Positions 20,301-56,809 of a stretch of 64,000 nucleotides of DNA are shown here, piece by piece. Position numbers and translations under genes: made by a program. Position 1 is the first letter of the stretch. Each line of letters begins with the position of its first letter. The notes beneath the pieces are model-generated. The model worked only from the letters and a program-made list of their open reading frames with translations. It was not told the DNA's origin and made no database searches. Where the stretch lies: positions 114,988 through 178,987 of the forward strand of contig NZ_JAKFUM010000016.1 in NCBI RefSeq assembly GCF_021732705.1, in the 5' to 3' direction. The stretch is from Nevskia sp. GTDB lineage: Bacteria > Pseudomonadota > Gammaproteobacteria > Nevskiales > Nevskiaceae.

Positions 20301-23300
20301 CGAGGCTGCTCGTGAAGGCGGCGCTGGATAGTGTCGCGATCTGATTGGCCGTCGAATTCAGTGCCACGGAATTCGCCGCCTGCACGTTCAAGGTCGTGGC
20401 ATTGACCGCCGTACCCGTGGCCTGCGTGATGGCGCCGGTATCGGCCCGCAAGGTGACGGCATTCCCGGCCACCGACCCACCCGTGCCTACCGACAAGTTG
20501 CCGGCTTGTGCTCGCAGGCTCGTGTTCCCGGTGCCGCCCATCACTGCCCCGCTGACATTCAGGGCCGACGCATTCAACAGCTGGAAGCCTGTCGCGGTGA
20601 AGGGACCGAGATTCGCGATGTTGTTGGCTTGGCCGAGGGTCGTTGTGCCGGACGACGATCCGGTCAACGTACCGGCCGTGATCGTTGCCGCGGTCTGGTT
20701 GATGGCCCCCGTTGTCGACGTCAGCGTCAGAGCGCCCGACGTCGTGATGGCGTGACCGATCCCAAGTGCGTCGCGCGCCGTCAGGCTGATATTGGCGCCG
20801 GACAAGCTGCCACCGGTGCTGAAACTGCCGCCGTTTGCCGCCAGCACGAGGTCAGCGGTGCCCGTGCTGATCGCACCCGCTGGCAGCGTGAGGTTGCCGC
20901 CGGCAATCAGGCTGACGGCACCATTGGCGCCATTGGCCAAGGTCGATACCGTCAGGTCATTGGTATCGCGCAAGCTGATCGCGTTGCCGGTGGCCGAGAC
21001 CGCGCCGGTGAAGTTGTTGGCGGCGTTGGCCAACGTCACGTTGCCGATGCCGGCATTCAGCGTGGTGGTGGTTCCTGCGACGATCGCACCGGTCTGGGTG
21101 ATATTGCCGTTGCTGCTGACGTTCAACGCACCGCTGACGGTGGAAGCGCCCAGAACAATCGCGTTGGCATCGACCAAGGTCGTGGCGGCGCCGGTCACCG
21201 AGACCGCGCCGTCGAAATCATTGCCGACATTGTTCAGCATGATCGCGGCACCGGTCGCCGTCAGCGCGCTGGTGCCGGCCACGGTCAGTGCGCCCGATTG
21301 CGTGATGGCATCGCCACCACTGGTGGCGACCAGATTGCCGGCGATGATGCCGGCGCCAAGGTTCAGCGCCCCGGCGCTCTGAACGCTGAGATCGGCGGTA
21401 TCCAGCGTCCCGAGCGTCAACTGGTTCGCGTCCCGGATGCTGACGTTGCCGCCCGCGAGCGATACCGCGCCGATGAAGTTGTTGGTCGCGGTGGTCAGCG
21501 TGATGGTGCTGCTGCCGGCGTCGATGTTGCTCGTACCGTTGACGCTCACCGCGCCGGTCTGGGTCACGGCACCGCTGGTCGTCGACGTCAGATTGCCGCC
21601 CAGATTCAAGGTGCCGTAGCTGAGCGTGCCGGTATTGCTCGTCGCCAGATCGTTTGCCGCAGTGACCGCACCCGTCGCGATGTTGCGGCCAGCAATCAGG
21701 TTGATCGTCGTTCCGCTCAAGGTCGTGCCGATGATGTCGCTGGTGGCACCGTCAGCGGTCAGCGACACCGTGCCGCTGCCTGCCGCGACAGTGCTGGCGA
21801 CGATGCTGCCGCCGGCGGTCACGGCGATGCTGCCGTTGCTGGTCGTGGCCGAGGTCAGGGTCACGCCATCCAGTTCGGCAAGGTTGATGCTGCCGGCTCC
21901 GCTCGATGTGGCACTGAGTGTGGTGGCTGCCGTTTCGATCGCTTCCGTCGTCGTGCCCACGCCGTTGGCTGCCGTCAACGTGACGTTACCGCCGGCGATG
22001 TCGACGGCGGCATCCGGCGTCGCTTCAGTGATCGACCCCGCTGTCGCGGTCAGGCTGACGTTGCCTTGACCCGCAGCACCCGCACCGGCACCTGCGCTGA
22101 CCGAGCCGACGCTCAAATTGCCGGCGCTCGTGGTGATGCTGATCGCGCCATTGACGGTGGTCGCCGAGTTCAGCAGCAAGGCGTTCGATTGGATGATCGA
22201 CAGGCTTCCGGTGCCGGTGACGCTCGCATTCAGGCTGGCAACGTCGGTTTCGATCGCCCCCCCGGTACCGTTGCCGATGCCTTGGGTTGCTTCAAGGGTC
22301 AGGCTGTTGGCGCGGATGTCGGCTGCAGCCGGCGCTTCGACGCTGTCGACAATCGAGCCGTCGCGAGCACGCAGCAGGACATCGCCGCTGGTGCCGATTT
22401 CCTGCTGCGTCAGCAGGCCGAGCGTGATGCCGTCGGCGATGACCGACAGATTCCGCGTGCCGATATCCTGGAACCGCGTCGTGTTGAAGTTGAAGTCCGC
22501 GCCATCGACGGCGATGCCGATGTCCTGCGTCGCCTCAGTCAGCTCGTTCAACTGCGACGCGCCCGCATTGACGTTGGTCGTCGTCACGAAGCGCACGAAC
22601 ACGCCCGCGGGCGCGCCGTCGAGGTTGATGTCCGGCAGGCCCGTGAAATCCAGATAGCCGAGCGGGATGCCGGATGTGGTCGCGCCGCCACCGCTGCCGA
22701 TCGTGGAAGCGGCACCGGCCGTCGTCAGGTTCACGGTGTTGGCGTCGATCAGCGTCGTGTCGATGGTGTCGTCGAGGATCGAGCCGGCCGATGTCAGCGT
22801 CACCGCGTCGCCATCGGCCGTGATCGCGCCGGCAATGAGATTGCCCGCAGTCGTGGTCAGCGTCACATCGCGATTGTTGCCGGCGGCGACAACCAGCGTG
22901 GCCGTCAGTTCACCGCCGGCGGAAACCGTGACGTCGCCATTGATCGTGCGGATGCTGTTCAGCGTGATCGCGTTCGCTTCCGCGACGTTGATCAAGCCCG
23001 TGCCGGTCACGGAAGCCGACAAGCCGGCCAGGTCGGTATCAATCGCGCCGGCACCCGCAGCGCCAATGCCGTCTCGCGCCGTCAGCACGGCATTCCCGGT
23101 CGCATTGGTGATGCTGGCTGCCGTGCCGCCGTCGTTATCGCTGATCGCACCGGCCGTTGCGGTCAGCGTGATCAGGCCACCCTGGCTCAGCACGGCGCCG
23201 TTGTTGAGCATCAGGTTTCCGCTGTTCGAGATCAGCGAGACCGTGCCGGTCACGTTGGCGGCATTGCTCTGGCGCAGCATGGCCACGGTCAGGCCGTTGA

Positions 23301-33485: not shown

Positions 33486-34907
33486 CTAGCGGATTGTCCG
33501 TCCGCCTCGCAGCCTCGACAACTGCGATTCGTAGGCTTTCGCGAACTCATCCCCGAACAGGCGGCGATACCGCTCGTCCGGATCGCGCCCGAGCCGGTCG
33601 AAGTGCTCGCGATAGCGCTCCCAGTGGCGGCCCTTGCCTGCGAAATCGAGCAGCGGTGGCCGCTTGCTGCCGTGATCCGCGTCGTGCTCGAAGGCATCCG
33701 GGCCGATCTGCCGCAGCATCGCGTCGAACGCCTCGCGCAGCGCGCCGACCATCGCCAGCTGATGACAGCGCAGTTCCTCGAACGCTTCGTCGAATGCGGC
33801 TTCGGCCGACAGGTAGCCGCTGCCCGGCGGCGCCAGCAGCCGGCTCAGGGCTTCATCGGCGTTGGCCGCGAACTTCAGCGGATTGTTGCCGCTGCGCTGC
33901 ATGATCGTGACCGGCACGCGCAGCGCATTCTTGATCTCGGCCCGCGTCCGCAGCGCCTCCATCAGACCGTCGACGGCCCGCCGGAACAGCGCATCGGCAG
34001 CCGGCGGCACGTCGTTCCACGCTGGCACCGCAGCCGATGCCGGCGGCGGCGATGCGCTGGTAAACGGCGCGTACGGTGCCGGTGCGGCAGCCGGCGCCGG
34101 GAACGAATTTGGAAATGGGGCCGGAAACGGCGTCGGATGCGCGCTTGCAGCGGGGGCCGACAGCGCGGATACGGCAGCCGATGGCGGTATCGACGGCCAC
34201 GGATCGCGCGGCAGCGAGACTGGGGCGGCATCGGCATGGCGCGACGGGAACGGCTCGTCATCGAGCAGGCCAAGGCTTCCGAACGGTGACGGTGGCGGCA
34301 CCGTCGGACGTGCCGGAACCGGATCCGGCAACGCGCGTTCCATAGCCTGCGCCCGTGACCACGAGGGGTCGGTCAGATGCGTCGGCAGCGGCTCGACCCG
34401 CGGCAACGGCGGCGGCGCGAACGCGGCATCGGCCACGGCGTAGCGCGGTTGCGAGGGCTCGCGCTCGTACCGGTCATCGCGCGCCGCGGCGGCCAGCCGC
34501 TCGGCATTGCCGATCCGCACTTCCAGCTCGAAGGTATCGATGCGAACGCGGTCGCCGTCCTGCAGCAGGCTCGGCTGGGCGTGCACCATCGGTGCGCCGT
34601 TCAGCAGCATGCCGTTGGTGCTGCGATCCTCGATGTAATAGCGGTTGCCGAGCACCGTGATCCGGGCGTGCATCCGCGACACGCCGGAAGCGCTCAGGAC
34701 CCAGTCGCAATCGTCGGAGCGGCCGATGCTGCCGCCGTGTCCTTCGAACGTCCGTGACGCCTGGGCGCCGAATTGCGCGGCCTGACGGCCGGCCACCTGC
34801 AGGTTCAGTATCGGGATGGTTGCCACGCTCGCACCGGTATCCTTATCGGAGGCAAGATCGGGCTTCACCGCGGTTTCGATCGAACCGACCGACGGCGAAG
34901 TCGACAT
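33486..34907 (-). CDS. FHA-domain protein, type VI secretion TagH/ImpI-like
   Basis: A 473-residue protein with an N-terminal FHA phosphothreonine-binding domain (GSIGRSDDCDWVL, SRMHARI, EDRSTNGMLLNG; about residues 60-105), a long Pro/Ala-rich linker (about 150-285) and a C-terminal helical domain typical of the FHA proteins of type VI secretion (LFRRAVDGLMEALRTRAEIK through LFGDEFAKAYE near the end). In known systems the phosphorylated Fha protein turns on secretion. Here it heads an operon with a PP2C phosphatase and a kinase, but no tss structural gene occurs in the 64 kb. The ribosome site before ATG 34907 (AAGG) is very close, so the exact start is less sure. Confidence 0.85.
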   Translation of the reverse strand: MSTSPSVGSIETAVKPDLASDKDTGASVATIPILNLQVAGRQAAQFGAQASRTFEGHGGSIGRSDDCDWVLSASGVSRMHARITVLGNRYYIEDRSTNGMLLNGAPMVHAQPSLLQDGDRVRIDTFELEVRIGNAERLAAAARDDRYEREPSQPRYAVADAAFAPPPLPRVEPLPTHLTDPSWSRAQAMERALPDPVPARPTVPPPSPFGSLGLLDDEPFPSRHADAAPVSLPRDPWPSIPPSAAVSALSAPAASAHPTPFPAPFPNSFPAPAAAPAPYAPFTSASPPPASAAVPAWNDVPPAADALFRRAVDGLMEALRTRAEIKNALRVPVTIMQRSGNNPLKFAANADEALSRLLAPPGSGYLSAEAAFDEAFEELRCHQLAMVGALREAFDAMLRQIGPDAFEHDADHGSKRPPLLDFAGKGRHWERYREHFDRLGRDPDERYRRLFGDEFAKAYESQLSRLRGGRTIR

Positions 34908-35013: not shown

Positions 35014-35029
35014 TGTTCGATAACGCACC
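35014..35029. promoter_or_regulatory. Crp/Fnr-type operator candidate upstream of dps
   Basis: TGTTCGATAACGCACC matches the palindrome TGTnCGnTAnCGnACA at 11 of 12 fixed positions. It lies between the divergent tagH-like and dps genes, about 100 bases before the dps start. The same palindrome occurs twice near 38.9 kb beside a Crp/Fnr-type gene. Confidence 0.55.
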
Positions 35030-35122
35030 GCAGTCCAGGCCCCCGATGGCGATGCTCCGGCTCCCCGTGCCGCGATCGCCTGCGCCCCCGCGCACGCCCC
35101 GCGCACGGCACCGGAGCATCCG

Positions 35123-35716
35123 ATGACTCTCAAGACCCCCGCGCCGACACCGGCCAGCAGCAAGGCCCGCCCGCACCTGCACCAGCACTCGCACGAGACT
35201 CAGGCCTTCGGCCAGCTGGTCAAGCTGCCGATCGCGCTTGGCGAGCAGGTCTGCAGCGGCAGCGTCGACCTGCTGAACCAGCTACTGGCCGACACCATGA
35301 CCCTGCGCGACCTGTACAAGAAGCATCACTGGCAGGTTTCAGGGCCCACGTTCAACGCCCTGCATCTGCTGTACGACAAGCACTTCGATGAACAGGTGCT
35401 GCTGGTGGACCTGATTGCGGAACGCATCCAGCTGCTCGGCGGAATCACGCTGGCGATGGGCGCCGACGTCGGCGAGGTCACGATGATTCCGCGCCCGCCG
35501 CGTGGCCGCGAGGAAGTGCCGGTGCAGCTGTCGCGGCTGCTCGAAGCGCACGAGCTGATCATTCTCGCGACCCGCAGCGTGGCCACTGCAGCGGCCGAGT
35601 CCGGCGATCTCGGCACCAACGATCTGCTGGCCGGTACGGTCCTGCGCACCAACGAGCTGCAGGTCTGGTTCCTGTCCGAACATCTGGTGGCGATGCCGCT
35701 GGTGAAGGCCACGTGA
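35123..35716 (+). CDS. dps: Dps-type DNA-binding ferritin-like protein
   Basis: A 197-residue Dps protein, which stores iron using hydrogen peroxide and protects DNA in stress and stationary phase. The ferroxidase segment is clear (KKHHWQVSGPTF at about 56-67, then YDKHFDEQVLLVDLIAERI), followed by the remaining helices of the ferritin-like bundle. The His-rich N-terminal tail (HLHQHSHETQ) could bind metal. GGAG precedes the ATG by nine bases. A candidate Crp-type operator lies upstream, and its stop overlaps the start of the aldehyde dehydrogenase gene. Confidence 0.93.
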   Translation: MTLKTPAPTPASSKARPHLHQHSHETQAFGQLVKLPIALGEQVCSGSVDLLNQLLADTMTLRDLYKKHHWQVSGPTFNALHLLYDKHFDEQVLLVDLIAERIQLLGGITLAMGADVGEVTMIPRPPRGREEVPVQLSRLLEAHELIILATRSVATAAAESGDLGTNDLLAGTVLRTNELQVWFLSEHLVAMPLVKAT

Positions 35717-37095
35717 GCTATCGCAGCGTCAATCCGTACAACGGTGACGTGATGGCGGAGTTCGACGAGATCGGCGACGCGGCGCTGGAGCAGGCCGTGG
35801 CCACCGCCGAAACCTGCTTCGAGGCCTGGCGCCGGACCGCCTTCGCCGAGCGCGCGGCCATTGCCACGCGCGCCGCCTCGATCCTGCGGCAGCAGGCGGA
35901 GGACCATGCCCGCCCGATGACGCAGGAGATGGGCAAGCGGATCAGCGAAGCCCGCGGCGAAGTCGCGCTCAGCGCCGACATCATCGACTACTACGCGATC
36001 CACGCCGAACGCTTTCTGGCACCGGAAATCCTGCAGCCGGAGGCGGGCGAGGCCCACGTCGAAAGCGAGCCGATCGGCCTGCTGTTCGGCGTGCAGCCAT
36101 GGAACTTCCCGTATTACCAGCTCGCCCGCTTTGCCGCCCCGAACCTGATGGCAGGCAACGTCGTGATGGTCAAGCATTCGGGCACCGTGCCGCAATGCGC
36201 GCTGCGCTTCGAACAGCTGTGGCGCGATGCCGGCGCGCCAGCCGGGGCCTACACGAATGTCTTCGCGAGCTACGACCAGATCACCCGTTTGATCGATGAC
36301 CCGCGAGTCAAGGGCGTGGCATTGACCGGCAGCGCCGATGCCGGCAGGAAAGTCGCCGCCCGTGCCGGTCAGAACCTGAAGAAGTCGACGATGGAACTCG
36401 GCGGCAGCGATGCCTTCATCGTGCTGGCCGACGCCGACATCGCCAAGACCGTGAAGTGGGCGATGTGGGCCAAGCTCAACAACATGGGCCAGTGCTGCAT
36501 CGCCGCCAAGCGCTTCATCGCGGTCGACGCGGTGGCCGATGCCTTCTTCGCCGCGTTCACCGACGCCATGACCCGGCTGACGCCGGGCGACCCGATGGAT
36601 GCGGCCACCACCCTGGCGCCGTTGTCGACGGAAGCGGCGCTGCTGACGCTGGTCGCACAAGTCGACCGGGCCGTCGCTCACGGCGCGACCCGGGTCATGG
36701 GCGGTGGCCGCATCGACCGGCCGGGCTCGTTCATGCAGCCGACGATCCTGTCGCACATCACGCGCGATAATCCCGCGTTCGACGAGGAATTCTTCGGCCC
36801 GGTCGCGCTGTTCTTCCGGGTGGCCGATGCCGATGCCGCGGTGGCGCTCGCCAATGATTCCAGCTTCGGACTCGGCGGCTCGGTGTTCACGCGCGACATT
36901 GCCGAGGGTCAGGCCATTGCCCGACGGATCGAAACCGGCATGGTGTTCGTCAACCAGCCGACGTGGACTGCGGCCGATCTGCCGTTCGGTGGTATCAAGC
37001 AGTCGGGCTACGGTCGCGAGTTGTCGCGCGCCGGCATCCAGGAGTTCGTCAACCGCAAGCTGATCCGGGTGGCCTCGATCGACGACGCACCCTGA
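35713..37095 (+). CDS. NAD(P)-dependent aldehyde dehydrogenase, succinate-semialdehyde (Sad/YneI) type
   Basis: A 460-residue aldehyde dehydrogenase. The active-site Glu lies in MELGGSD (E228) and the catalytic Cys in GQCC (C262 by alignment to the usual GQxC), with the cofactor segments PWNFP (129-133) and LTGSADAG (204-211). Length and the ELGGSDAFIVL segment resemble E. coli Sad (YneI), which oxidises succinate semialdehyde to succinate; the substrate here is inferred. It starts with GTG inside GTGA shared with the dps stop, an unusual pairing that suggests coupled stress expression. A hairpin follows at 37125-37153. Confidence 0.88.
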   Translation: MSYRSVNPYNGDVMAEFDEIGDAALEQAVATAETCFEAWRRTAFAERAAIATRAASILRQQAEDHARPMTQEMGKRISEARGEVALSADIIDYYAIHAERFLAPEILQPEAGEAHVESEPIGLLFGVQPWNFPYYQLARFAAPNLMAGNVVMVKHSGTVPQCALRFEQLWRDAGAPAGAYTNVFASYDQITRLIDDPRVKGVALTGSADAGRKVAARAGQNLKKSTMELGGSDAFIVLADADIAKTVKWAMWAKLNNMGQCCIAAKRFIAVDAVADAFFAAFTDAMTRLTPGDPMDAATTLAPLSTEAALLTLVAQVDRAVAHGATRVMGGGRIDRPGSFMQPTILSHITRDNPAFDEEFFGPVALFFRVADADAAVALANDSSFGLGGSVFTRDIAEGQAIARRIETGMVFVNQPTWTAADLPFGGIKQSGYGRELSRAGIQEFVNRKLIRVASIDDAP

Positions 37096-37124
37096 GCAGC
37101 GGGCCGCTTCCCGGCATCACCTCG

Positions 37125-37153
37125 CCCCCTGTCGCGACCCGCGCGGCAGGGGG
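37125..37153. terminator. hairpin between convergent ALDH and Crp-type genes
   Basis: Arms CCCCCTG (37125-37131) and CAGGGGG (37147-37153) pair perfectly, with extra GC pairing inside. It lies in the 90-base gap between two convergent stop codons. No T run follows on either side, so termination is plausible but not proved. Confidence 0.4.
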
Positions 37154-37185
37154 TCCATGCAGCCCGGACGGCGGCTGCCGACCCG

Positions 37186-37893
37186 CTACCTCAGCAGCCG
37201 CGAATACTCTTCGTTGACGCCGCGATAGCACTCGCAACTGACGGCCTCGAGCCCCTGACGGTCGAGAATGTGGATATCGCCGCGCGAGTACTCGATCAGA
37301 CCATTCGCCTGCATCACCGACGCCGCCGTGGTGACACCGCTGCGCCGCACGCCGAGCATCTCGGACAGGAACTGGTGGGTCAGGTGGAAGTGATCGCCGT
37401 GCGCGCGGTCATGGGTCATCAGCAGCCACCGTGCCAGGCGCTGGCCGATCTCGTGAAAGTGCAGGCAGGCCGCGGTCCGAGACAACTGCACCATCAGCAC
37501 GTAGAGGTAGCGGTTCAGTGTTCGCCGTAGCATCGGGCTTTCGTCAAGCGCCTTGCGCAATGCGCTCGGCGTCAGCCTCAGCGACTGCCCGGCCCCTTGC
37601 ACGATGCAGCGGAGCGGCATGCTGGTGACGCCGAGCAGCATCGTGGCGCCGAGGGCGCCTTCGCTGCCGATCATGCCCATTTCGATCGGCGGCCGCTCAT
37701 CGACACTGGCCACCAGCGACAGAAATGCGGTCAGCGGAAAATGCACGTGCCGCAGCGGCCCATGCGCTTCGCAGAGGATGGTGCCGAACGTCAGATCGAC
37801 GGTCTGACACCGCGCCAGCAGAGCCTTGCGCTCGGCCGGCGGCAGACGCTGGATCAGGGTATTCACGACAGGCCGTACATCGATGGCAGACAT
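37186..37893 (-). CDS. Crp/Fnr-type transcriptional regulator, copy 1
   Basis: A 235-residue regulator with an N-terminal cyclic-nucleotide-binding-like beta-roll (about 20-130), a dimer helix and a C-terminal winged helix (FLSEMLGVRRSGVTTAASVM at about 176-195). It lacks the usual cAMP-binding signature and the N-terminal cysteine cluster of FNR. The C-terminus carries CECY, also present in the second copy. ATG 37893 has AGAGG six bases upstream; the longer open frame to 37968 looks non-native. It lies head to tail with the paralogous gene at 38041, 147 bases downstream of it. The signal is unknown. Confidence 0.88.
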   Translation of the reverse strand: MSAIDVRPVVNTLIQRLPPAERKALLARCQTVDLTFGTILCEAHGPLRHVHFPLTAFLSLVASVDERPPIEMGMIGSEGALGATMLLGVTSMPLRCIVQGAGQSLRLTPSALRKALDESPMLRRTLNRYLYVLMVQLSRTAACLHFHEIGQRLARWLLMTHDRAHGDHFHLTHQFLSEMLGVRRSGVTTAASVMQANGLIEYSRGDIHILDRQGLEAVSCECYRGVNEEYSRLLR

Positions 37894-38040
37894 CAGCGCC
37901 TCTGCAAGCAGTCCCGACGCCGGAGATGGCACGCGACAGCTGCCAGTTCCGCCACGCACCCGCACCATAGCGCCATCGATGCCGGGTTTCGGTGCGTCAG
38001 GGCACAGAGTCCGCGTCGCGCCGCGCAGCCGCGACCAACG

Positions 38041-38766
38041 TCAGTGCGCGGTCGACTTCAGCAATGGCAGCAGGCGATCGGTCTCGATCTTCACGACGCT
38101 GTAACACTCGCAGCACAGCCGTTCGAGGCGCGACCGATCGAGTACCGTGATCTTCCCGCGGTTGTAGGAAATCACTGCCAGCTTCTGCAGCTTGCTCGCC
38201 GCTTCGGTCACGCCCTCGCGGCGCACGCCCAGCATGTTGGCGATCAGTTCCTGCGTCATCGACAACTGGTTGCTGGGCAGACGATCGAGCGACAGCAGCA
38301 GCCATCGGCAGAGTTGCTGATCGATCGTGTGATGCCGATTGCAGACCGCGGTCTGCGCCATCTGCGTGATCAGCGACTGCGTGTAGCGCAGCAGCAGATC
38401 CATCAGATCACTGTGTCGATTGATCTCTTCCTTGAAGCGGCCACTGGCCAGCTGATAGGCATAGCCTGCGCTCTGCACGATGGCGCGGCTCGGCGTGCTG
38501 TTGCCACCCGTGAACAGCGCGATGCCGATCAGGCCATCGTTGCCGACAACCGAGATTTCGGCCGATGCTCCACTCTTCATGACATACAGCAGCGACACGA
38601 TGGCATCGGTCGGGAAGTAGACATGATTGAGCGTATCGCCGGACTCGTAGACGACTTTGCCGAGTCGCAGTGGAATCAGTTTCAGATGAGGAAACAGGCG
38701 GGCCTGCACGGACTCCGGCAGTGCCGCCAGAAGGTGATTGTGTTGCGGATTGTAGGTCAGGGGCAT
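38041..38766 (-). CDS. Crp/Fnr-type transcriptional regulator, copy 2
   Basis: A 241-residue paralogue of the preceding regulator: cyclic-nucleotide-like sensor domain, then a winged helix (LIANMLGVRREGVTEAASKL) and a CCECY segment near the C-terminus. ATG 38766 lacks a ribosome site; a TTG six codons earlier (38784), with GAGG just before it, is an alternative start. Two copies of the TGTnCGnTAnCGnACA palindrome lie in its divergent upstream region, so it or its paralogue may regulate its own gene and the membrane peptide gene opposite. The effector cannot be told from sequence. Confidence 0.86.
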   Translation of the reverse strand: MPLTYNPQHNHLLAALPESVQARLFPHLKLIPLRLGKVVYESGDTLNHVYFPTDAIVSLLYVMKSGASAEISVVGNDGLIGIALFTGGNSTPSRAIVQSAGYAYQLASGRFKEEINRHSDLMDLLLRYTQSLITQMAQTAVCNRHHTIDQQLCRWLLLSLDRLPSNQLSMTQELIANMLGVRREGVTEAASKLQKLAVISYNRGKITVLDRSRLERLCCECYSVVKIETDRLLPLLKSTAH

Positions 38767-38847
38767 TGAAGCGACTGATCGCAAAACCTCGCAAGTAAGA
38801 GACTCCGTCCCTGTAGAGCCAGCTTACCCAGTCTTGATTTGTTCTTA

Positions 38848-38863
38848 TGTGCGCTATCGTACA
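38848..38863. promoter_or_regulatory. Crp/Fnr-type operator candidate, perfect palindrome match
   Basis: TGTGCGCTATCGTACA matches TGTnCGnTAnCGnACA at all 12 fixed positions. It is centred about 90 bases upstream of the Crp-type gene on the minus strand and 177 bases before the membrane peptide gene on the plus strand. Confidence 0.6.
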
Positions 38864-38946
38864 AATGGCACCGGCATGCAGCTGAAACAACAGTGCGGAT
38901 TGAACGTCGGCGCCCGATCAGTATGCAATCGCCGCGCGAGAACATG

Positions 38947-38962
38947 CGTTCGATACCGTACA
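38947..38962. promoter_or_regulatory. Crp/Fnr-type operator candidate before the membrane peptide gene
   Basis: CGTTCGATACCGTACA matches the same palindrome at 11 of 12 fixed positions and is centred about 78 bases before the ATG at 39033. Confidence 0.55.
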
Positions 38963-39032
38963 GACCCTGTCCTGCGCTGCTCGCACCGTCGATCTCCGAA
39001 GGTCGCCACGACCGTTTCCAAGGATCATCGAC

Positions 39033-39179
39033 ATGCTTGAAACAATTGCCGTCGTGCTGCTCGTGCTGTGGGCGCTGGGGCTGGTCTCCGCCTATTCGCT
39101 CGGAGGCCTGATCCACATCCTGCTGGTCGTCGCGATCGTGCTGATCATCATCCGCGTGGTGCAGGGCCGGCGGATCTGA
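39033..39179 (+). CDS. 48-residue membrane peptide, lmo0937/DUF5670-like
   Basis: A tiny protein with two hydrophobic helices (TIAVVLLVLWALGLVSAY and HILLVVAIVLIIIRVV) joined by SLGG and ending in a basic RR. Size, the LWALG start and the two-helix layout are those of the lmo0937-type family, often found near stress genes; no biochemical role is known. AAGGA lies eight bases before the ATG. It is divergent from the second Crp-type gene, with two candidate operators between them. Confidence 0.8.
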   Translation: MLETIAVVLLVLWALGLVSAYSLGGLIHILLVVAIVLIIIRVVQGRRI

Positions 39180-39294
39180 CCGCGGTCCTTCGAGCGATCA
39201 AATGGGCCCGGTTCGATGGCGCACAGACCTCGGGACCAACAGCAGCGAAAGTGACGGACATGAAGCCGATCCCCCGATCGACGGAGCGTCCGAC

Positions 39295-40113
39295 ATGCCG
39301 AGCTTCAAGGATTTCGCACCCACCCCGGTTCGCCCGGCGCTGTGGCCCGTCGCAAGACGGCCGGCGGCACCGGTCTCGACGATGGCACTGGCCGATGGCA
39401 GCGGCATCGACCTGGCCCTCGCGCTCGCCATCGCCGAAGAACAGCTGCACGGGACGCTGCGTGAAAACGAGCTTCTGCGCGTCAGCAACCAGCGCCTGAT
39501 GACGGCGCTGTCCGATGTCTCTCGTCAGAACAGCGAGGCGCACCACCTCGCTCATCACGACGCGCTGACCGGCCTGCCGAACCGGTTGATGCTGCTGCGT
39601 CGTCTGCAGGACGGCATCGCCGACGCCTTTGTCCGCCAGCAGCACCTGGCGTTGATGTTCATCGATCTCGATGGCTTCAAGGTGGTCAACGATCGCTACG
39701 GCCACACCACCGGCGACAAGCTGCTGGGTGTGGTTGCCAGACGCATCGTCGGCTGCGTCCGGTCCGACGATGTTGCGTGCCGCTACGGCGGCGACGAGTT
39801 CGTCGTGATGCTGTCGAACCTGCACGACGGCTCGCTGGCCGTGGGGCTGGCCGACGAGATCCGGCGGCAGGTCGAAGGCCGCTACTGCATCGACGGCATC
39901 GAACTGACCATCAGCGCATCGATCGGCATGGCGCTGTATCCGGTCGATGGCGAACACCACGATACCTTGCTCGAGGTGGCGGACGCCTCGATGTATCGAA
40001 ACAAGTCGGCCCGCATGGCGCGCCAGGCGCTGGCGGTCGGCAAGGCCGCAGCCACGGCCGAACCGGAACCCAAACGCCGCAGCCGCGTGCGGTCGCTGCG
40101 CGCTCGTGCCTGA
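39295..40113 (+). CDS. diguanylate cyclase (GGDEF domain)
   Basis: A 272-residue enzyme making cyclic-di-GMP from two GTP. The first 40 residues have no recognised fold; a helical, probably coiled-coil segment (about 45-88) leads into the GGDEF domain: HHDALTGLPNR, FIDLDGFKVVND, and an intact active site RYGGDEFVV (GGDEF at 165-169). An RxxD inhibitory site (RSDD, 156-159) sits five residues before it, so product feedback is likely. The frame also opens at 39202, but ATG 39295 has GGAG nine bases upstream. No membrane segment or named sensor domain is seen. Confidence 0.9.
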   Translation: MPSFKDFAPTPVRPALWPVARRPAAPVSTMALADGSGIDLALALAIAEEQLHGTLRENELLRVSNQRLMTALSDVSRQNSEAHHLAHHDALTGLPNRLMLLRRLQDGIADAFVRQQHLALMFIDLDGFKVVNDRYGHTTGDKLLGVVARRIVGCVRSDDVACRYGGDEFVVMLSNLHDGSLAVGLADEIRRQVEGRYCIDGIELTISASIGMALYPVDGEHHDTLLEVADASMYRNKSARMARQALAVGKAAATAEPEPKRRSRVRSLRARA

Positions 40114-43970: not shown

Positions 43971-44071
43971 CGGCGCCCGGAACGCTGTGCGTGCCAGCGG
44001 ACAGACGGGCGCCAGGCACGCGCCGACGCTCGACCGTCGCTCGCGCGCGAGCCCACCGATCCGACGACGCC

Positions 44072-46486
44072 ATGGATTCACCGCCGATCTCCACCGGCCC
44101 GCGCGGGGCCGCGATGCTGCCGCCGGGACCGCTGTCCGCCGAGGAACTGGCTGGCCTCGATGCCTACTGGCGGGCGTCGAATTACCTCGCCGCAGGCCAG
44201 ATCTACCTGAAAGCCAATGCCCTGCTCGATCAGCCGTTGCAACGGTCGCAGATCAAGCCGCGCCTGCTCGGTCACTGGGGCACGACCCCGGGCCTGAACT
44301 TCCTGTACGTGCATCTGAACCGGCTGATCAAGGCCCATGCGCTGGATCTGCTCGCGATCATCGGCCCCGGTCACGGCGGACCGGCCATCGTTGCCCAGAG
44401 CTGGCTCGAAGGGACGTACAGCGAGCGGTACCCGGCCATCGGCAACAACCGCAGCGGCATCGAGCGGCTGTTCCGGCAGTTCTCGTGGCCGAACGGCATT
44501 CCGAGCCATGTCTCGGCCGACACGCCGGGGTCGATCTATGAAGGCGGCGAGCTCGGTTACTCGCTGGCCCATGCCTACGGTGCGGTGTTCGACAATCCGG
44601 GGCTGATCGCGGCCTGCATCATCGGCGATGGCGAAGCCGAAACCGGCGCGCTGGCGGCCAGCTGGCACTCGAACAAGTTCCTGAATCCGATCCGCGATGG
44701 CGCGGTGCTGCCGATCCTGCACCTGAACGGCTACAAGATCGCCAATCCGACGGTGCTCGCGCGCATCCCGCGCAGCGAGCTGATCGACCTGCTGCGCGGC
44801 TACGGCCACGAGCCGCATTTCGTCGAAGGCGACGAGCCGCTGATCGTGCATCAGGCGCTTGCCGCAGCACTGGACACGGTGCTGGCGTCGATCCAGCAGA
44901 TCCAGCGCGAAGCCCGGCGGCCGGATCGAGGCGCGGCCCTCACCCGCCCGCGTTGGCCGATGATCGTGTTCGCGACGCCGAAGGGCTGGACCGGCCCGAA
45001 GGTCGTCGACGGCCTGCCGGTCGAAGGCACCTGGCGCGCCCATCAACTGCCGATCACCGATCCGAGTCGGCCCGGGCAGCTGCAGCTGCTTGAGGACTGG
45101 CTGCGCAGCTACCGGCCGCAGGAACTGTTCGATGCCGATGGTCACTTCCTGCCGGCGCTGGCGGCACTGGCGCCGACCGGCCGCCACCGCATCGGCGCCA
45201 ATGCCCATGCCAACGGTGGCCGCCTGCTGGTGCCGCTGGTGCTGCCGTCGTTCCGCCAACACGCCATCCAGTTCGATGAACCGGGTACCGCGCGCGGCGA
45301 AGCCACGCGACGGCTCGGCAGCTATCTGCGCGACGTCATGCGCGCCAACGCGGCTGCCGGCAACTTCCGGCTGTTCGGCCCCGACGAGACCGCCTCCAAC
45401 CGCCTCGCCGAGGTCTACGAGGTGTCCGGCAAGACCTGGCTCGAGCCACTGCTGCCGGTCGATCGCGATCTCGCTGCCGATGGCCGGGTCATGGAAGTGC
45501 TCAGCGAACATCTGTGCCAGGGCTGGCTGGAAGGCTATCTGCTGACCGGCCGGCACGGTCTGTTCTCGTGCTACGAGGCGTTCATCCACATCATCGATTC
45601 GATGTTCAACCAGCATGCGAAGTGGCTCAAGCGCAGCCGCGAGCTCGCATGGCGCGAACCGATCGCCTCGCTGAACTATCTGCTGACGTCGCACGTCTGG
45701 CAGCAGGATCACAACGGCTATTCGCATCAGGATCCGGGCTTCATCGACCATGTCGCGAACAAGAAGTCCGGTGTCGTTCGCATCTATCTGCCGCCGGACA
45801 GCAACTGCCTGCTGTCGGTCGTCGATCACTGCCTGCGCAGCCGCGACTACGTCAACGTCGTCATCGCCGGCAAGGCGCCGTGCTGGCAGTGGCTGACCAT
45901 CGACGACGCCGCGCGGCACTGCACCGACGGCATCGGCATCTGGCGCTGGGCCGGCAACGACGATGACGATCCGGACGTGGTCATGGCCTGCGCCGGCGAT
46001 GTGCCGACGGTCGAGACGCTGGCCGCCGTCATGCTGCTGCGGGCCGATGCGCCGGGCATCCGCATCCGCGTGGTCAACGTCGTCGACCTGATGGCGCTGG
46101 TGCCGCGCAGCGAGCATCCGCACGGTCTCGACGATGCGACGTTCGATGCGCTGTTCACCGTCGACCGCCCGGTGATCTTCGCGTTCCACGGCTATCCGGC
46201 GCTGATCCACAAGCTGATCTACCGGCGCCGCAATCACGCCGGCTTCCACGCCCACGGCTACCGCGAGGAAGGCAGCACGACCACTCCGTTCGACATGGTC
46301 GTGCTGAACGGCCTCGACCGCTATCGGCTCGCGCTCGATGCCATCCGCCACGTGCCGCGTCTGGCGTCGACGCTCGAGGCAGCGATCGATCTCTACTGGG
46401 AGCGCATCGCCCGGCACAAGCGCCACATCAGCGAGTGGGGCGAAGACCTGCCGGAGATCCGCGACTGGCGCTGGTCGCGGCCATGA
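44072..46486 (+). CDS. xfp: xylulose-5-phosphate/fructose-6-phosphate phosphoketolase
   Basis: An 804-residue thiamine-diphosphate enzyme that splits xylulose 5-phosphate (or fructose 6-phosphate) with phosphate into acetyl phosphate and a sugar phosphate. Family segments are intact: [28 protein letters not shown], ThDP-binding [19 protein letters not shown], and [21 protein letters not shown]. Length is normal. ATG 44072 starts near the usual family N-terminus; ATG 44114 is an alternative. Its stop overlaps the acetate kinase start through ATGA, so acetyl phosphate is handed on to make ATP and acetate. Confidence 0.95.
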
Positions 46487-47637
46487 GTGCGGCGATCGGA
46501 CAGGCGCTCGGCGCGGCGCAGGCCGAAGCGACGGCTGACGGCGGCAGCATCGTGGTGCTGGTGCTGAACAGCGGCTCCTCGAGCCTGAAGCACGGGCTGT
46601 ATCGCGTCAGCCGGTGGCGGATCGACTGCCTGAACGACGGCATCATCGAGGATGCCGATGCCGACCCGCTGGCGGCGATCGTCGCGATCGTCCGGCAACT
46701 GGCCGAGGCCGCGTTGCCGCCACCGCAGCGCATCGGCCACCGCATCGTTCACGGCGGGCCGCATCGGCATCGCCATGGACGGATCGATGCGCAGGTGCTG
46801 CAGCAACTCGAAGCCGCGGCACCGTTCGCGCCGCTGCATGCCGCCAAGGCGCTGGCACTGATCCGCCACTGCGGCAGCCTGTTTCCCGGACATCCGCAGG
46901 TGGCCTGCTACGACACCGCGTTCCACGCCGCCATGCCGGCGCTCGGCGCGACCCTGCCGCTGCCGAAAGCGCTGCGCGACAGCGGCCTGCGCCGCTACGG
47001 CTTTCATGGTCTGTCATGCGAATCGGTGCTCGACACGCTGGGTGCGGACTGCCCACCTCGTGTGGTCATCGCCCATCTCGGCAACGGCGTCAGCATCAGC
47101 GCGGTGCGCGATGGCCGCTCGATCGACACCAGCATGGGGCTCACGCCGAACGGCGGCGCGATCATGGGCACGCGTTGCGGCGATCTCGATCCCGGCGTGC
47201 TGCTGCATCTGTTGCAGCAGCGGCAGTTCGATGGCGCGGCGTTGAGCCGCCTGCTCGAGCATGAATCCGGCCTGCTCGGTCTTTCCGGCGTGTCCAGCGA
47301 CCTGCGCGCGATTCGCGCCGCCGCCGACCGCGGCAACCGCGATGCGGCCTTCGCGATCGAGGCCTTCTGCCTGTCGGTCGCGCGCCCGATCGCGGCGATG
47401 ATCGCGGTGCTCGACGGCCTCGACCTGCTGGTGTTCACCGCCGGCATCGGCGAACACGATGCCGCCGTGCGCGAAAGCATCTGCGCGCATCTCGGCTGGA
47501 TCGGCATCAGCCTGGATGGCGGGCGCAACGCTGCCGGCAACGCCGTGATCCACGGTCCCGCCTCGCGCTGCGCCATTCGAGTGGTCCCCTGTCGCGAAGA
47601 CGAGCAGATCGCGCGTCATGCGGCGGACGCCGCGTGA
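46483..47637 (+). CDS. ackA: acetate kinase
   Basis: A 384-residue acetate kinase (acetyl phosphate + ADP to acetate + ATP). Motifs: [11 protein letters not shown] at the N-terminus, GHRIVHGG with the catalytic Arg, YDTAFH with the catalytic Asp, [18 protein letters not shown] with the second Arg, and FTAGIGEHD. It is slightly shorter than typical 400-residue enzymes. The start ATG 46483 shares ATGA with the phosphoketolase stop. Together they form a two-step bypass giving ATP from pentose phosphate. No phosphotransacetylase is in the window. Confidence 0.93.
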
Positions 47638-47669: not shown

Positions 47670-48284
47670 TCAGCCGTTGACCCGCCGCAACGGCGCCGTC
47701 GCGTCGAAATCGATCCACTGCCCGGCATCGATGATGCCTTCGGCGGCATCGATGTCCGTGGCCCCATGCGCCTGCAGGATGCGGATCGCCGATAGCTGCC
47801 ATGCGGCGTCGCTGGCGGTCACGGCGATCAAGGTGCCGGGCTGGCGCTGCAGGCTGCTGGGCGGTGTCTGCTGCTCGTCGCGATGATCCGGGTCGGCGGG
47901 ATCGCCGAGCTTGTTCAAGGCACCGACCAGCGAGCCGACGTAGGCACCGGCTCCCGCACCGGCGACGGCCGCACCGGGACCGAGGAACGGCACTGTCAGC
48001 AGGCCGGCGGCAATGCCGACCGCACCGCCGATCGCCGCGCCGGACAGTGCACCGCCGGCGGCCGGATCGTCGCCGGGCGATTCGAGCTGTTCGACCGTCG
48101 TCGTTGCCGGTGGCGCTGCGGTTGCCGACGGCGATTCTTCCGCCGTCGCCGGCTGGGCCGGCGGCAGACCGGCGACGACGAGCGACGCCGTGCCCGTGCG
48201 CGCGAAGCCGGCGCCATCGAGTTCAGCCAGCGCCAGGCGCACCTGTTCCGCGTTCTGGAAGTTGCCGGTGATCAGGGTCGACAT
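47670..48284 (-). CDS. glycine-zipper protein, function unknown
   Basis: A 204-residue protein. The N-terminal part (STLITGNFQNAEQVRLALAEL, then FARTGTASL) resembles the beta-alpha-beta start of YflT-like stress proteins; a Pro/Thr/Ala-rich linker follows; the middle is a Gly/Ala hydrophobic zipper (GAAIGGAVGIAAGLL and VAGAGAGAYVGSLVGAL, about 80-120); the C-terminus repeats a similar alpha/beta half (ILQAHGATDIDAAEG). AAGGAG lies six bases before the ATG. It is divergent from the lipase gene and convergent with acetate kinase. A membrane-associated general-stress role is a guess. Confidence 0.75.
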   Translation of the reverse strand: MSTLITGNFQNAEQVRLALAELDGAGFARTGTASLVVAGLPPAQPATAEESPSATAAPPATTTVEQLESPGDDPAAGGALSGAAIGGAVGIAAGLLTVPFLGPGAAVAGAGAGAYVGSLVGALNKLGDPADPDHRDEQQTPPSSLQRQPGTLIAVTASDAAWQLSAIRILQAHGATDIDAAEGIIDAGQWIDFDATAPLRRVNG

Positions 48285-48451
48285 CGCGTGCTCCTTGCAG
48301 GCGCACGCCGCGCCGGCCGACGGCCGGATGACGTTGTGCGCACTGCAGCCTCGCCCGCCGACAGCGCCCGGTCTGTACGGCAGCGCGCAGCAGGGCCGCT
48401 GCTACGTGTGCTGGCGCACGGAGCACCCGGTACTCGAGTGGGATGGTCCCA

Positions 48452-48526: not shown

Positions 48527-50893
48527 ATGCGCTCGACCGTGCGCCCGATGGTCCGTTCCCGTCTGTTCGTCATCCTGTCCGCCGCGCTGTCCGCCACGGC
48601 GCTGCTCGCCGGTTGCGGCAGCGGCAATGGCGGTGACGGCGGCCTGCTGGCCAGTCCGTCATCCGCGTTCTCGCTGTTCGATCCAACCGGCGTCAGCAAC
48701 ACCGCCACGCCGGGCAGCGCGATCATCCCGTTCCCGTTCGACGGCCTGTTCGCCAACAGCCCGACGCCGACGCTGAACATCCCGCTGCCGGACGCCGCCA
48801 ATCCGGCCAACCCGGCGAATGCGCTGGTGGTCTCGGCCAACCTGCAGGACGGCTTCTCGACCACCGCCTCGATCTTCACCGACTTCGCCGGCTTCATCGA
48901 TTTCGCGACCGTGCCCCGCGGCCTGCTGGTGATCAATGGCCGCACCGGCCAGCCGCTGGTCTACGGCAGCGACTACACGGTGCAGACCTCGACCGCGATC
49001 GGCAGCGATGGCGTGCCGCTGAATCTGGAACGCACGCGCATCCTGATCGAGCCGCTGAAGCCGCTGGCGCCGTCGACGACCTACATCGTGGCGCTGACGC
49101 CGGCGATCCAGAGCCGCGATGGCCTGCCGATCGTCGCCAGCGACTACTTCCGCGCCGTGCGCAGCGCGACACCGGTGGCCTCGCAGACCGGCAACTTCGC
49201 CGCGGCATTGACGCCGGCGCAGCGCACCACGCTGGAAGCGGTGCGCAGCCAGCTGATCCGGCCGCTGGTGCAGGTGCTGACCGCGCCACCGGCGCAGGGT
49301 GGCGCGGGACTGACCGAGGAACAGGTGATCATCGCGTGGAGCTTCACCACGCAGTCGATCGACAGGACCCTGCGCTCGGTCGCGGCGCGCGCCACACCGG
49401 GCGTGATCCGGGCAGTGCCGACCGGTCTGACCACGCAGGCCGTCGGCGGCTTCGGGCTGGCCAGCCTGTATGCCGGCATCACCACCGTGCCGTACTACCT
49501 GAACAACGCCGGCACGCCGGCCAATCCGCAGTCGCAGGCGCCGCTGACCGGCTATTGGCGCGCGGATCCGACGCGTCCGGATCCGGGCGTGTTCGCGCCA
49601 ACGCAGTTGTCGGCACAGCCCGTGCCCTGCGCCGCGTTCACGCCGGCCGCCGGTCTGGGCCTGAGTCCAAGCCCGAGTACCACCGGCTGCTTCCCGGCCG
49701 TCGACATCGCCACGGCAACGACCGAGACCATCCCGGTGCTGGTCACCGTGCCCAGCCCGGCCAGCGGTCGCGTCCGCCCGGTCACTGGCTGGCCGGTGGT
49801 CATCTTCCAGCACGGCATCACCCGCAACCGCGCGGACCTGCTCGCCGTCGCCGACACGCTGGCGCAGGCCGGCTTCGTGGCCGTGGCGATCGACCTGCCG
49901 CTGCACGGTGTCGCCCCGCCGGACCCGCTGCTGCCGCAGCCGACCGATCCGCTGTATCGCAACGGCCTGTTCGCCGGTTCGCCGGCCGCAGCCCTGCAGA
50001 CCGGCGAGCGGACCTTCGATCTGGACCTGCAGAGCAACGCCACCGGCGCCGCCGGACCGGATGGCCGCGCCGACACCTCGGGCAGCTGGTTCATCAACCT
50101 GCCGAGCCTCGTCACCAGCCGAGACAACATCCGGCAGGCGGTGTCCGACCTGCTGACCCTCGAAAAGACGCTGGCCGGGCTCGATCTCGACGGCGACAAC
50201 GCGGGCGACATCGACACCACGCAGATCCGCTTCTTCGGACATTCGCTCGGCGCGATCGTCGGCACCACCTTCCTCGGCGTCAGCAGCAACACCAATGCCG
50301 CGGCACTCGCCAACCCGGGTGGCGGCATCGGCAAGCTGCTCGATGGTTCGGCGTCGTTCGGGCCGCGCATCGCCGCCGGCCTGCAGGCGTCCGGCGTGCG
50401 CGAAGGCACGGATGACTACGAAACCTTCCTCCGCTTCGCCCAGACCCTGGTCGATTCCGGCGATCCGCAGAACTACGCGGTGGCCGCGCGTGCCGCCCAC
50501 CCGATCTACCTGATCGAAGTGCAGAACGACACCGTGGTGCCGAACGCCGTGCCGTCGAACTGCACGTCGGCACCGACCGGGCTCACCTGCAGCAACAACG
50601 CCGCGGCCGATCGCGTGCTGATCGCGGGCTTCCTGTCCGGCACCGATCCGCTGGTACGGACGATGGGCCTGACGACCGTCGGCCCACTGACCATTCCGCT
50701 TGCCGCGCAGGCGCCGATCACCGGCGCCAGCCTCGGCCTCGTCGCCCGCTTCACGCAGGGCAACCACGGTTCGATCCTCGATCCGAGCGGCGGCAACGTC
50801 AACGCGGCGGTGACCTGCGAGATGCAGCGTCAGACCGCGAGCTTCCTCGCGACCAACGGCACCGCGCTGCCGGTCGGAGGCACCTGCCCATGA
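48527..50893 (+). CDS. VolA-like lipase lipoprotein (alpha/beta hydrolase)
   Basis: A 788-residue lipoprotein with lipobox LLAGC (Cys 30). The first third matches the N-terminal domain of bacterial virulence-factor lipases (IPFPFDGLF, DGFSTTA, DYTVQT, LAPSTTYIVALT); the C-terminal half is an alpha/beta hydrolase with nucleophile GHSLGA (Ser 573), oxyanion region VIFQHGITRNR, and a late FTQGNHG His. VolA of Vibrio cholerae is a surface lysophospholipase of this type that works with a fatty-acid channel. A strong GGAGGAGG sits six bases before the ATG. The stop overlaps the next gene by ATGA, so the hydrolase and an outer-membrane protein are made together; substrate is not known. Confidence 0.87.
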   Translation: MRSTVRPMVRSRLFVILSAALSATALLAGCGSGNGGDGGLLASPSSAFSLFDPTGVSNTATPGSAIIPFPFDGLFANSPTPTLNIPLPDAANPANPANALVVSANLQDGFSTTASIFTDFAGFIDFATVPRGLLVINGRTGQPLVYGSDYTVQTSTAIGSDGVPLNLERTRILIEPLKPLAPSTTYIVALTPAIQSRDGLPIVASDYFRAVRSATPVASQTGNFAAALTPAQRTTLEAVRSQLIRPLVQVLTAPPAQGGAGLTEEQVIIAWSFTTQSIDRTLRSVAARATPGVIRAVPTGLTTQAVGGFGLASLYAGITTVPYYLNNAGTPANPQSQAPLTGYWRADPTRPDPGVFAPTQLSAQPVPCAAFTPAAGLGLSPSPSTTGCFPAVDIATATTETIPVLVTVPSPASGRVRPVTGWPVVIFQHGITRNRADLLAVADTLAQAGFVAVAIDLPLHGVAPPDPLLPQPTDPLYRNGLFAGSPAAALQTGERTFDLDLQSNATGAAGPDGRADTSGSWFINLPSLVTSRDNIRQAVSDLLTLEKTLAGLDLDGDNAGDIDTTQIRFFGHSLGAIVGTTFLGVSSNTNAAALANPGGGIGKLLDGSASFGPRIAAGLQASGVREGTDDYETFLRFAQTLVDSGDPQNYAVAARAAHPIYLIEVQNDTVVPNAVPSNCTSAPTGLTCSNNAAADRVLIAGFLSGTDPLVRTMGLTTVGPLTIPLAAQAPITGASLGLVARFTQGNHGSILDPSGGNVNAAVTCEMQRQTASFLATNGTALPVGGTCP

Positions 50894-55380: not shown

Positions 55381-56450
55381 CGCGGCGGTGGCTCGGGATG
55401 CGGGCTGGCTGCCGGCAACGGGTTGCCGTTCCGGGCCCAGACATCGAGCAGGGCCAGGGTCACGCTCAGGATCACCGGGCCGAGGATCAGACCCGCGCTG
55501 CCGAACACGAGCAAGCCGCCGACGATCGCGATGAACGCCGGCACCGTGTGCAGCTTCAGCCGCGCGCCGACCAGCATCGGCCGCAGCAGGTTGTCGATGG
55601 TGCCCACCACCAGCACGCCCCACAGCACCAGCACCAGCGCGGCGGCCCAGCGATTCTCGACCACCAGGAACAGCGCCGCCGGAATCCAGACCACGAAGGC
55701 GCCGAGCACCGGCACGATCGCCAGCACCATCATCACCACGCCCCACAGCAGCGGGGCCGGCAGGCCGAGTGCCCAGAACATCAGTCCGCCGAGCAGGCCC
55801 TGGACCGAGGCCACGGCGAGCGTGCCGTAGACCGTGGCGTGAATGCAGTCATCGATGCGCGGCAGCATCGTGTCCATGTCGCGCGGGCCCAGCGGCGTCA
55901 GTCGCCGCACGGCTGAGAGCACCATCGTGCGATCGCGCAGCAGGAAGAACAGCAGGTAGAACACGAGGCCAAGGCCGATGATCTGCACCGCCGAGCCTCG
56001 GGCCATCGCGCCCGCCGCGTTGCCGAAGCGATCGGTCAGCAGCTTGACCGTCTGCGCCAGATCGATCCGGGCCTCGATCGCCGCCGCAGGTCGCGCCAGC
56101 AGCGGCTGTTCGGCCAAGCGTTGTCGCCATTGTCCGGAGGCGGCTTCGGCCTCGACGCGGGCGGCACCGACCATGGCTTGCACCGCGAGCTGCTGGCCGA
56201 CGAAGGCCGCCGGCGCCACCACCAGCAGGCCAATGACGAAGACCGATGCCAGCGCCGCGCGATTGGCCGAGCCGAGCATCCGTTCGAGCCGCTGCTGCAT
56301 CGGCGCGAAGATCACCGCCAGCGCCGTGGCCCAGACCAGCGGCGTCAGAAACGGCAGCGCCATGCGACCGCACAGATAGAGCCCCGCCGCGGTCAGCAGT
56401 GCCAGCAGCGCTGCGGTCAGCGCATCGCGACTGATCAGCCGTCGCGTCAT
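55377..56450 (-). CDS. AI-2E family (PerM/YdiK-like) permease
   Basis: A 357-residue integral membrane protein of the AI-2E transporter family: two N-terminal helix pairs, a cytosolic stretch (about 95-175), then six more helices with the family-typical PAPLLWGVVMMVLAIVPVLGAFVVWIPA and TIDNLLRPMLVG (TIDN/RP motif). Members export autoinducer-2 or exchange Na+/H+; the role here is open. ATG 56450 is preferred; a GTG at 56537 would add an Arg-rich tail. It is coupled to the downstream ATPase. Confidence 0.88.
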   Translation of the reverse strand: MTRRLISRDALTAALLALLTAAGLYLCGRMALPFLTPLVWATALAVIFAPMQQRLERMLGSANRAALASVFVIGLLVVAPAAFVGQQLAVQAMVGAARVEAEAASGQWRQRLAEQPLLARPAAAIEARIDLAQTVKLLTDRFGNAAGAMARGSAVQIIGLGLVFYLLFFLLRDRTMVLSAVRRLTPLGPRDMDTMLPRIDDCIHATVYGTLAVASVQGLLGGLMFWALGLPAPLLWGVVMMVLAIVPVLGAFVVWIPAALFLVVENRWAAALVLVLWGVLVVGTIDNLLRPMLVGARLKLHTVPAFIAIVGGLLVFGSAGLILGPVILSVTLALLDVWARNGNPLPAASPHPEPPPR

Positions 56451-56809
56451 CAGGCCCTGCCCGCGCGGCTCTCCGCCATCCGGACGGCGGCGCACGATCG
56501 ATCGGCCACCCGAGCGGCTGCCGTCGGATTCGATCACCGGCCGGTGCCCGTGATCGGCAGCCGATCATTCCCGCCGACAGGCCAGTGTGCAGTCAGAGTC
56601 ATCAGCGAGCACCGGTCGGAGGGAGGCTCACGATGCGCGGCGCGCAGCGCGGCAATCGGTACGCAGCCGCACGCAGGCTCTTCGACCGCAAATCGGCCTG
56701 CGGCGTGGGAACGCTCGCGTGCGGCGCGCCGGGCCCGCCTGGAATCGAGTCCAGACGATCGGGAGATGCATATAGCTGCTCAGGTGTCCGCTGTGTCAGC
56801 GCCGCGCTG
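56451..56809. other. intergenic region between the glucan synthase and the permease
   Basis: 359 bases between two genes on the minus strand. I see no supported gene and no convincing terminator or promoter. A short TGCGC-GGC-GCGCA palindrome lies at 56634-56646. Confidence 0.5.

Follow-up and report, generated by a model that had tools for sequence, protein, structure and literature searches.

A 16-base palindrome recurs in a 64,000-nucleotide stretch of the Nevskia sp. genome (contig NZ_JAKFUM010000016.1; this whole stretch is called the window below). It is most likely the operator of a Crp/Fnr-type regulator encoded at positions 38041-38766 on the minus strand, and possibly of paralogues of this protein as well, and it appears to serve class II activation of an autoregulated, largely clustered set of stress genes. 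Comparisons with related genomes indicate that the palindrome is a real, conserved control element. They also suggest that the Crp-type protein from 38041-38766 is very probably its binder and that the operator is likely to support activation rather than repression. A stress role is proposed for the regulon because of the kinds of genes that it is predicted to contain. The initial annotation of this DNA had suggested that a Crp-type protein binds a palindrome shared by several promoters. Three lines of evidence give that view strong support: the element is conserved upstream of regulator orthologues, the motif co-occurs with the regulator gene, and the spacing is that expected of class II promoters.

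All three palindromes first reported from the window are present. Operator 1 (38848-38863, minus strand; 38846-38865 in the extended form defined below) matches all 12 fixed positions, would serve the Crp-type gene at 38041-38766 and is followed by the -10-like hexamer TAAGCT at 38821-38826. Operator 2 (38947-38962, plus strand) matches 11 of 12 positions and would serve a small membrane peptide gene at 39033-39179, with a -10-like CACCGT at 38984-38989; it can also be read toward the Crp-type gene, with a -10-like CATACT. Operator 3 (35014-35029, plus strand) lies 5' of dps, likewise matches 11 of the 12 positions (2 mismatches in 14 for the extended form) and is followed by a -10-like GATGCT at 35051-35056. 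When up to two mismatches are allowed, the window holds six matches compared to a mean of 1.8 in shuffled sequences, and 2 of 100 shuffles reached six.

Conservation and co-occurrence with the regulator gene

Orthologues of the regulator were represented by the best 80 of 573 confirmed loci, which encode proteins 73-80% identical to it and come from Pseudomonas, Aeromonas, Chromobacterium, Nitrosomonas, Nevskia, Cellvibrio and other genera. The 350 bases upstream of each protein match were searched. Perfect sites precede 20 of the 80 orthologues, and the count rises to 39 with at most one mismatch and to 58 with at most two. About 60 control palindromes rearranged from the same half-site yielded no perfect match, and matches with up to one mismatch in one locus at most. 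The aligned sites also agree at flanking positions for which they had not been selected, with T at -1 in 86% and A at +18 in 84%, and these bases extend the element to TnTGTnCGnTAnCGnACAnA. Both outer flank bases are present at the first two window sites, and one of the two at the dps site. None of the 95 sites with at most one mismatch in the orthologue loci falls inside a called gene, in sequences where 69% of bases are called coding.

The motif also tracks the regulator gene across genomes. Among 369 genomes of the same class, a perfect motif occurs in 25 of the 39 that carry the Crp-type gene (E<=1e-60) versus 33 of the 330 that do not (p 1.6e-13). Site totals exceed those of a reversed control pattern only in the carriers (55 versus 7 in the 39 genomes with the gene; 34 versus 46 in the 330 without it). 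A similar distribution is found in 58 genomes of the same family, where 15 of 33 carriers (E<=1e-20) but 1 of 25 noncarriers contain a perfect motif (p 0.0004). This family set overlaps in part with the orthologue loci; L058 and G021, and L050 and G025, share the same coordinates. A further set of 24 genomes, selected as carriers of the gene, holds 37 perfect sites versus 3 for the control, and six of the 24 have none.

Within the Nevskia sp. genome itself (4.53 Mb), 14 sites have at most one mismatch, versus seven for the reversed pattern, so that about half of them may be background. When the 20-base extended form is searched for and two mismatches in 14 are tolerated, there are 10 sites versus 4 for the control. 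Five of these 10 reside on one 260-kb contig (C8), including those at 35014, 38848 and 38947.

Promoter architecture and proposed mechanism

Spacing between the operator and a downstream promoter element was counted from the first operator base. At 47 sites upstream of crp-type genes (at most one mismatch), a TATAAT-like hexamer with at least four matches is most frequent at offset 37 (17 of 47), followed by offset 38 (8 of 47). With a looser NAnnnT pattern, 22 of 59 crp promoters have a hexamer at offset 37. For 134 pairs of sites and genes other than crp, the NAnnnT peak is at offset 38 (56 of 134), with 25 more at 39; the best offset outside 36-39 has 15 and the median is 4.5. If this hexamer occupies positions -12 to -7, the operator is centred at about -41.5 in the other targets and at about -40.5 in crp itself. 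A position near -41.5 is established for class II activators at CRP and FNR promoters, and the predicted operator would be placed near it.

In the proposed mechanism, a regulator dimer would bind TnTGTnCGnTAnCGnACAnA centred near -41.5, where it would replace the -35 element. The bound dimer would then contact RNA polymerase in the class II mode and activate transcription. In this manner the regulator would turn on its own gene, the divergent membrane peptide gene and neighbouring stress and envelope genes. The pair formed by dps and an aldehyde dehydrogenase gene was probably recruited to the set in this genome.

The peptide, dps and aldehyde dehydrogenase genes

The peptide encoded at 39033-39179 (plus strand) has 48 residues and belongs to the DUF5670/lmo0937 family, with scores above the family cut-offs for both PF18919 (58.8 bits; cut-off 23.5) and NF033488 (61.1 bits; cut-off 30). 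Relatives are found in 11 of the 58 family genomes, and all 11 genomes contain a Crp-type match too. A site with at most 3 of 14 mismatches starts 83-89 bases before the peptide start codon at 8 of 12 loci, namely in the window genome (L203) and in 7 of the 11 relatives (L205, L206, L207, L209, L212, L213 and L214), in agreement with the earlier inclusion of the peptide in the shared set. L206, L209 and L213 have a further match, equal or better, more upstream. Among the remaining loci, L210 has a poor match at this position (5 mismatches), L208 has one at -94 (4 mismatches), and L204 and L211 have none. The Crp-type gene and the DUF5670 peptide gene can be regarded as secure among the predicted targets.

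One of these peptide loci lies on a contig labelled Verrucomicrobia (L117 and L213). Over the residues shown, its regulator and peptide look identical to those of G026, a genome from the window's own genus, and the label may therefore reflect mis-binning.

The dps gene (35123-35716, plus strand) appears to encode a Dps-type ferritin-like protein. The product scores above the cut-off for Ferritin (PF00210, 91.5 bits) and below the cut-offs of three Dps-type equivalog models. The sequence and spacing of its operator fit the placement of dps in a shared regulon, as had been suggested, and make the link plausible in this genome. Among more remote Dps relatives, no site within three mismatches was found in the best 14 of 29 loci. 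Membership of dps in the regulon seems moderately probable. An FHA protein with a type VI secretion C-terminal domain is encoded divergently from dps at 33486-34907, and the dps operator is in their shared upstream region.

The start of the aldehyde dehydrogenase gene (35713-37095, plus strand) overlaps the dps stop codon, and its best profile model, of the succinate-semialdehyde type, scores below cut-off. The initial annotation had included this gene as a possible member, and that wording can be kept solely for its position as the second gene overlapping dps; whether it belongs would follow from whether dps does. A dehydrogenase relative preceded by a site occurs at one other locus (L123), where a 61% identical protein is encoded in Halopseudomonas pelagia.

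The regulator and alternative explanations

The likely binder carries a cNMP_binding domain (PF00027, 31 bits; cut-off 27.5) and an HTH_Crp_2 domain (PF13545, 55.7 bits; cut-off 27). It adopts a Crp fold in the best AlphaFold2 model, which has a mean predicted local distance difference test (pLDDT) score of 88.4 (the other four are below 67) and matches 3d0s_A best in Foldseek (E 9.3e-14). The NtcA model TIGR03697 gives the protein 30.2 bits versus a cut-off of 244.95. The N-terminal cysteine cluster of [4Fe-4S] FNR proteins is absent, and the first cysteine is C142. In a comparison by eye with CRP, the cAMP-binding residues do not seem to be retained. The recognition-helix segment GVRREGVT shows little or no variation among 30 aligned proteins. 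C142, H146, C219 and C221 are invariant in 30 aligned sequences, including a 35% identical paralogue encoded in the window, and it is a guess that a redox or metal cue is read through them. The paralogue is a second Crp-type regulator with an HTH_Crp_2 domain, encoded at 37186-37893 on the minus strand.

Several results weigh against the assignment of the palindrome to the first regulator and its proposed targets. No site with at most two mismatches lies upstream of 22 of the 80 orthologues, and the 80 loci are partly interdependent, with many from Pseudomonas and many from close relatives. Perfect sites are missing from 14 of 39 carriers of the gene in the class set and from 18 of 33 in the family set, and are present in the 33 of 330 class genomes mentioned above despite the missing gene. 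Eight of the 14 one-mismatch sites in the Nevskia sp. genome are inside called genes and six are outside, as judged with a home-made gene caller trained on the high-GC window. No dps relative (E<=1e-22) was found in the other 79 genomes searched, all of which had been picked as carriers of the Crp-type gene, and the dps link is for this reason drawn from the window genome. Three dehydrogenase relatives from the same genus, located in other gene strings, have no upstream site. Finally, the paralogues leave more than one candidate binder for each site.

The second Crp-type paralogue might bind the element, together with the first regulator or alone, in which case the first would serve another site. 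Its helix segment has the same GVRR-GVT residues, its gene adjoins that of the first in several genomes, and sites are found upstream of its relatives. However, three genomes (G024, G026 and G027) contain 2, 3 and 3 perfect sites, yet the second-type matches listed for them are at most 39% identical and are in fact their first-type genes. We regard this arrangement as unlikely, while giving it more weight than any other alternative to binding by the first regulator in an activating role. Repression by the first regulator from this site is improbable. An operator that overlaps the -35 region could block RNA polymerase, but no clear TTGACA peak surrounds the 47 crp-upstream sites, to which this count is limited (best 7 of 47). 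Moreover, among non-crp targets, TA begins only 13 of the 56 hexamers found at offset 38, as would fit weak promoters that depend on an activator.

Two further explanations separate the palindrome from Crp-type proteins altogether. Another factor, for example one of the IclR type, could bind it, so that the Crp link would reflect a shared neighbourhood only. This idea draws on a putative likeness to PcaR-type sites; against it, the 330 class genomes that lack the Crp-type gene have no excess of the motif over control, and the length and outer TGT/ACA of the element agree with Crp-type operators. Binding by such a factor is very improbable. Chance matching in GC-rich DNA is scarcely credible as an account of the three sites, even though the 14 one-mismatch matches in the genome are merely twice the seven of the control. 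Conservation, co-occurrence and spacing contradict it and refute it for the first two sites; the dps site taken by itself could be a chance match. For the motif in general, chance was ruled out by the rearranged-palindrome and reversed-pattern controls.

A wider set of predicted targets

A composite model of the operator plus the -10 element was trained on 142 promoters from outside this genome and used to scan the window, 95% of which is called coding. The top 11 hits, at nine sites, are all intergenic and 69-181 bases 5' of a gene. They precede the two Crp-type genes, the peptide gene, dps, a GGDEF gene, a phosphoketolase gene, a divergent pair at 48.3-48.5 kb and an AI-2E-type transporter gene. 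In 20 Markov-random windows, the best hit was 19.8 once and otherwise no higher than 12.7. The dps site scores 20.3, and a single score near this value could arise by chance about once per 20 windows. In contrast, chance would not be expected to yield six hits of 16.7-20.3, each at a promoter position, in a single window. The training set includes copies of window promoters from related genomes, and the crp and peptide scores are consequently not independent evidence.

These hits amend the earlier statement that other intergenic regions contain no good match, since weaker sites share the same promoter layout. One is 5' of the second Crp-type gene (37991-38006, minus strand; 3 of 14 mismatches; -10-like TATGGT at 37964-37969), and relatives of this gene have upstream sites in the same layout. 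Another (39210-39225, plus strand; 2 of 12 mismatches; -10-like GAAAGT at 39247-39252) is 5' of the GGDEF gene (39295-40113, plus strand), a predicted target. The remaining four are candidate weak operators. The site at 43988-44003 (plus strand; composite score 16.7) precedes the phosphoketolase gene (44072-46486, plus strand), also a predicted target, which is followed by an acetate kinase gene at 46483-47637. Two sites would serve the divergent pair: 48374-48389 (minus strand; 17.1) is 5' of a gene at 47670-48284 with no Pfam match, and 48405-48420 (plus strand; 20.2) is 5' of a lipase-like gene at 48527-50893. The last, 56658-56673 (minus strand; 16.8), is 5' of the AI-2E-type transporter gene at 55377-56537. 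A very large GH94/glucoamylase-type gene occupies 56810-64000 and extends past the window end; genes that resemble it by eye follow sites in L084, L104 and L122. Elsewhere in the window, 8323-25155 is one open frame of about 5610 codons.

Perfect copies of the extended form are found in the genome only at 38848 and on contig C17. The C17 site is 5' of a PAS histidine kinase gene, and the gene for a 57% identical Crp-type paralogue follows the site after 2.8 kb. In this region (L161, 7141-9629), the perfect site lies between a BLUF photoreceptor gene and the PAS histidine kinase/receiver gene, with the paralogue further along. Kinases that resemble this one by eye, with a perfect site, are also present in G019 (L129) and at two Cellvibrio loci (L057 and L073). 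On contig C8 (position 190181; 12182 of L158), a site with one mismatch and a -10-like hexamer are 5' of a sigma-54-type response regulator gene.

Across 118 loci, the composite model gives 362 hits with scores of at least 20 when the two directions of a palindrome are counted apart. Two of these are inside called genes, 163 lack a called gene on the same strand at a distance of 20-250 bases downstream, 63 precede Crp-type genes (recognised by short words) and 117 precede other distinct genes; 17 were dropped as incomplete, longer than 1500 codons or duplicates. Within the first 25 of 66 families, the 117 genes include 15 of DUF5670, 9 of HTH_Crp_2 (further Crp-type genes), 8 of CsbD and 5 of DUF3309. 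BON, GGDEF, Ysc84 and HisKA/PAS kinases have four each, and NhaA, DUF883, LTXXQ and fatty acid desaturases have three each. The loci were those surrounding the regulator or perfect sites, so the list reflects local targets and does not test for enrichment.

Relatives of the regulator occur on 48 of 72,556 plasmid records. On pKLC102, a conjugative element of P. aeruginosa (L239, 83797-103532), the regulator gene is surrounded, at distances of up to about 6 kb, by six composite hits with scores of 19.7-28.2; genes close to these hits include a GH94 gene and one for a fatty acid desaturase. Two other plasmid stretches have none and one. It is close to an even question, and we lean slightly against, whether one unnamed Crp/Fnr subfamily, acting through a class II operator of 20 bases in place of an alternative sigma factor, controls a regulon for general stress and the envelope in Gammaproteobacteria and neighbouring groups. 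Such a system would be autoregulated, would consist of clusters in which small stress genes come and go, could move together with its targets, for example on pKLC102, and might read its signal through C142, H146, C219 and C221.

Comparison with known regulatory systems

To our knowledge, small stress-type genes such as those of the DUF5670, CsbD, DUF3309, BON, YSC84 and DUF883 families are common in Proteobacteria, and their inducers outside the RpoS, EcfG and sigma-B systems are often unknown. The palindrome marks out a gene set that our literature search did not find named. A sharp operator tied to one regulator would allow a regulon of such genes to be read from sequence, and makes their control and stress trigger directly testable. 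That search also turned up no published description of the motif or the regulon; a computational survey of Crp/Fnr target motifs from 2013 may contain an earlier prediction. Mg2046 of Magnetospirillum is similar in that it is a 240-residue protein with CRP effector and HTH_Crp_2 domains, but the terms 'motif' and 'binding site' are absent from the text of the paper (PMC6607277). Passages of another study, which concerns the DNA-binding domain across the Crp/Fnr family, contain no such motif (PMC12531629). The name lmo0937 occurs in Listeria papers on sigma B.

The closest parallels among well-characterized regulators include members of the Crp/Fnr superfamily. E. coli CRP activates class II promoters from the operator TGTGA-N6-TCACA centred at -41.5. 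The window element resembles it as a 16-base dyad with outer TGT...ACA and a centre near -41.5, and the regulator shares the Crp fold. Unlike the CRP operator, the element has an inner CGnTAnCG, and the regulator is only about 16-18% identical to solved CRP structures. FNR, ANR and DNR recognize TTGAT-N4-ATCAA. They have the same superfamily fold and class II use in common with the predicted system, and differ from it in their operator and in the N-terminal cysteines that the window regulator lacks. The general stress regulons of sigma-B, EcfG and RpoS overlap with the predicted regulon in the kinds of targets (CsbD, BON, DUF883 and the DUF5670 peptide). In those systems control is exerted by an alternative sigma factor, whereas here it would be exerted by a predicted DNA-binding activator and its operator.

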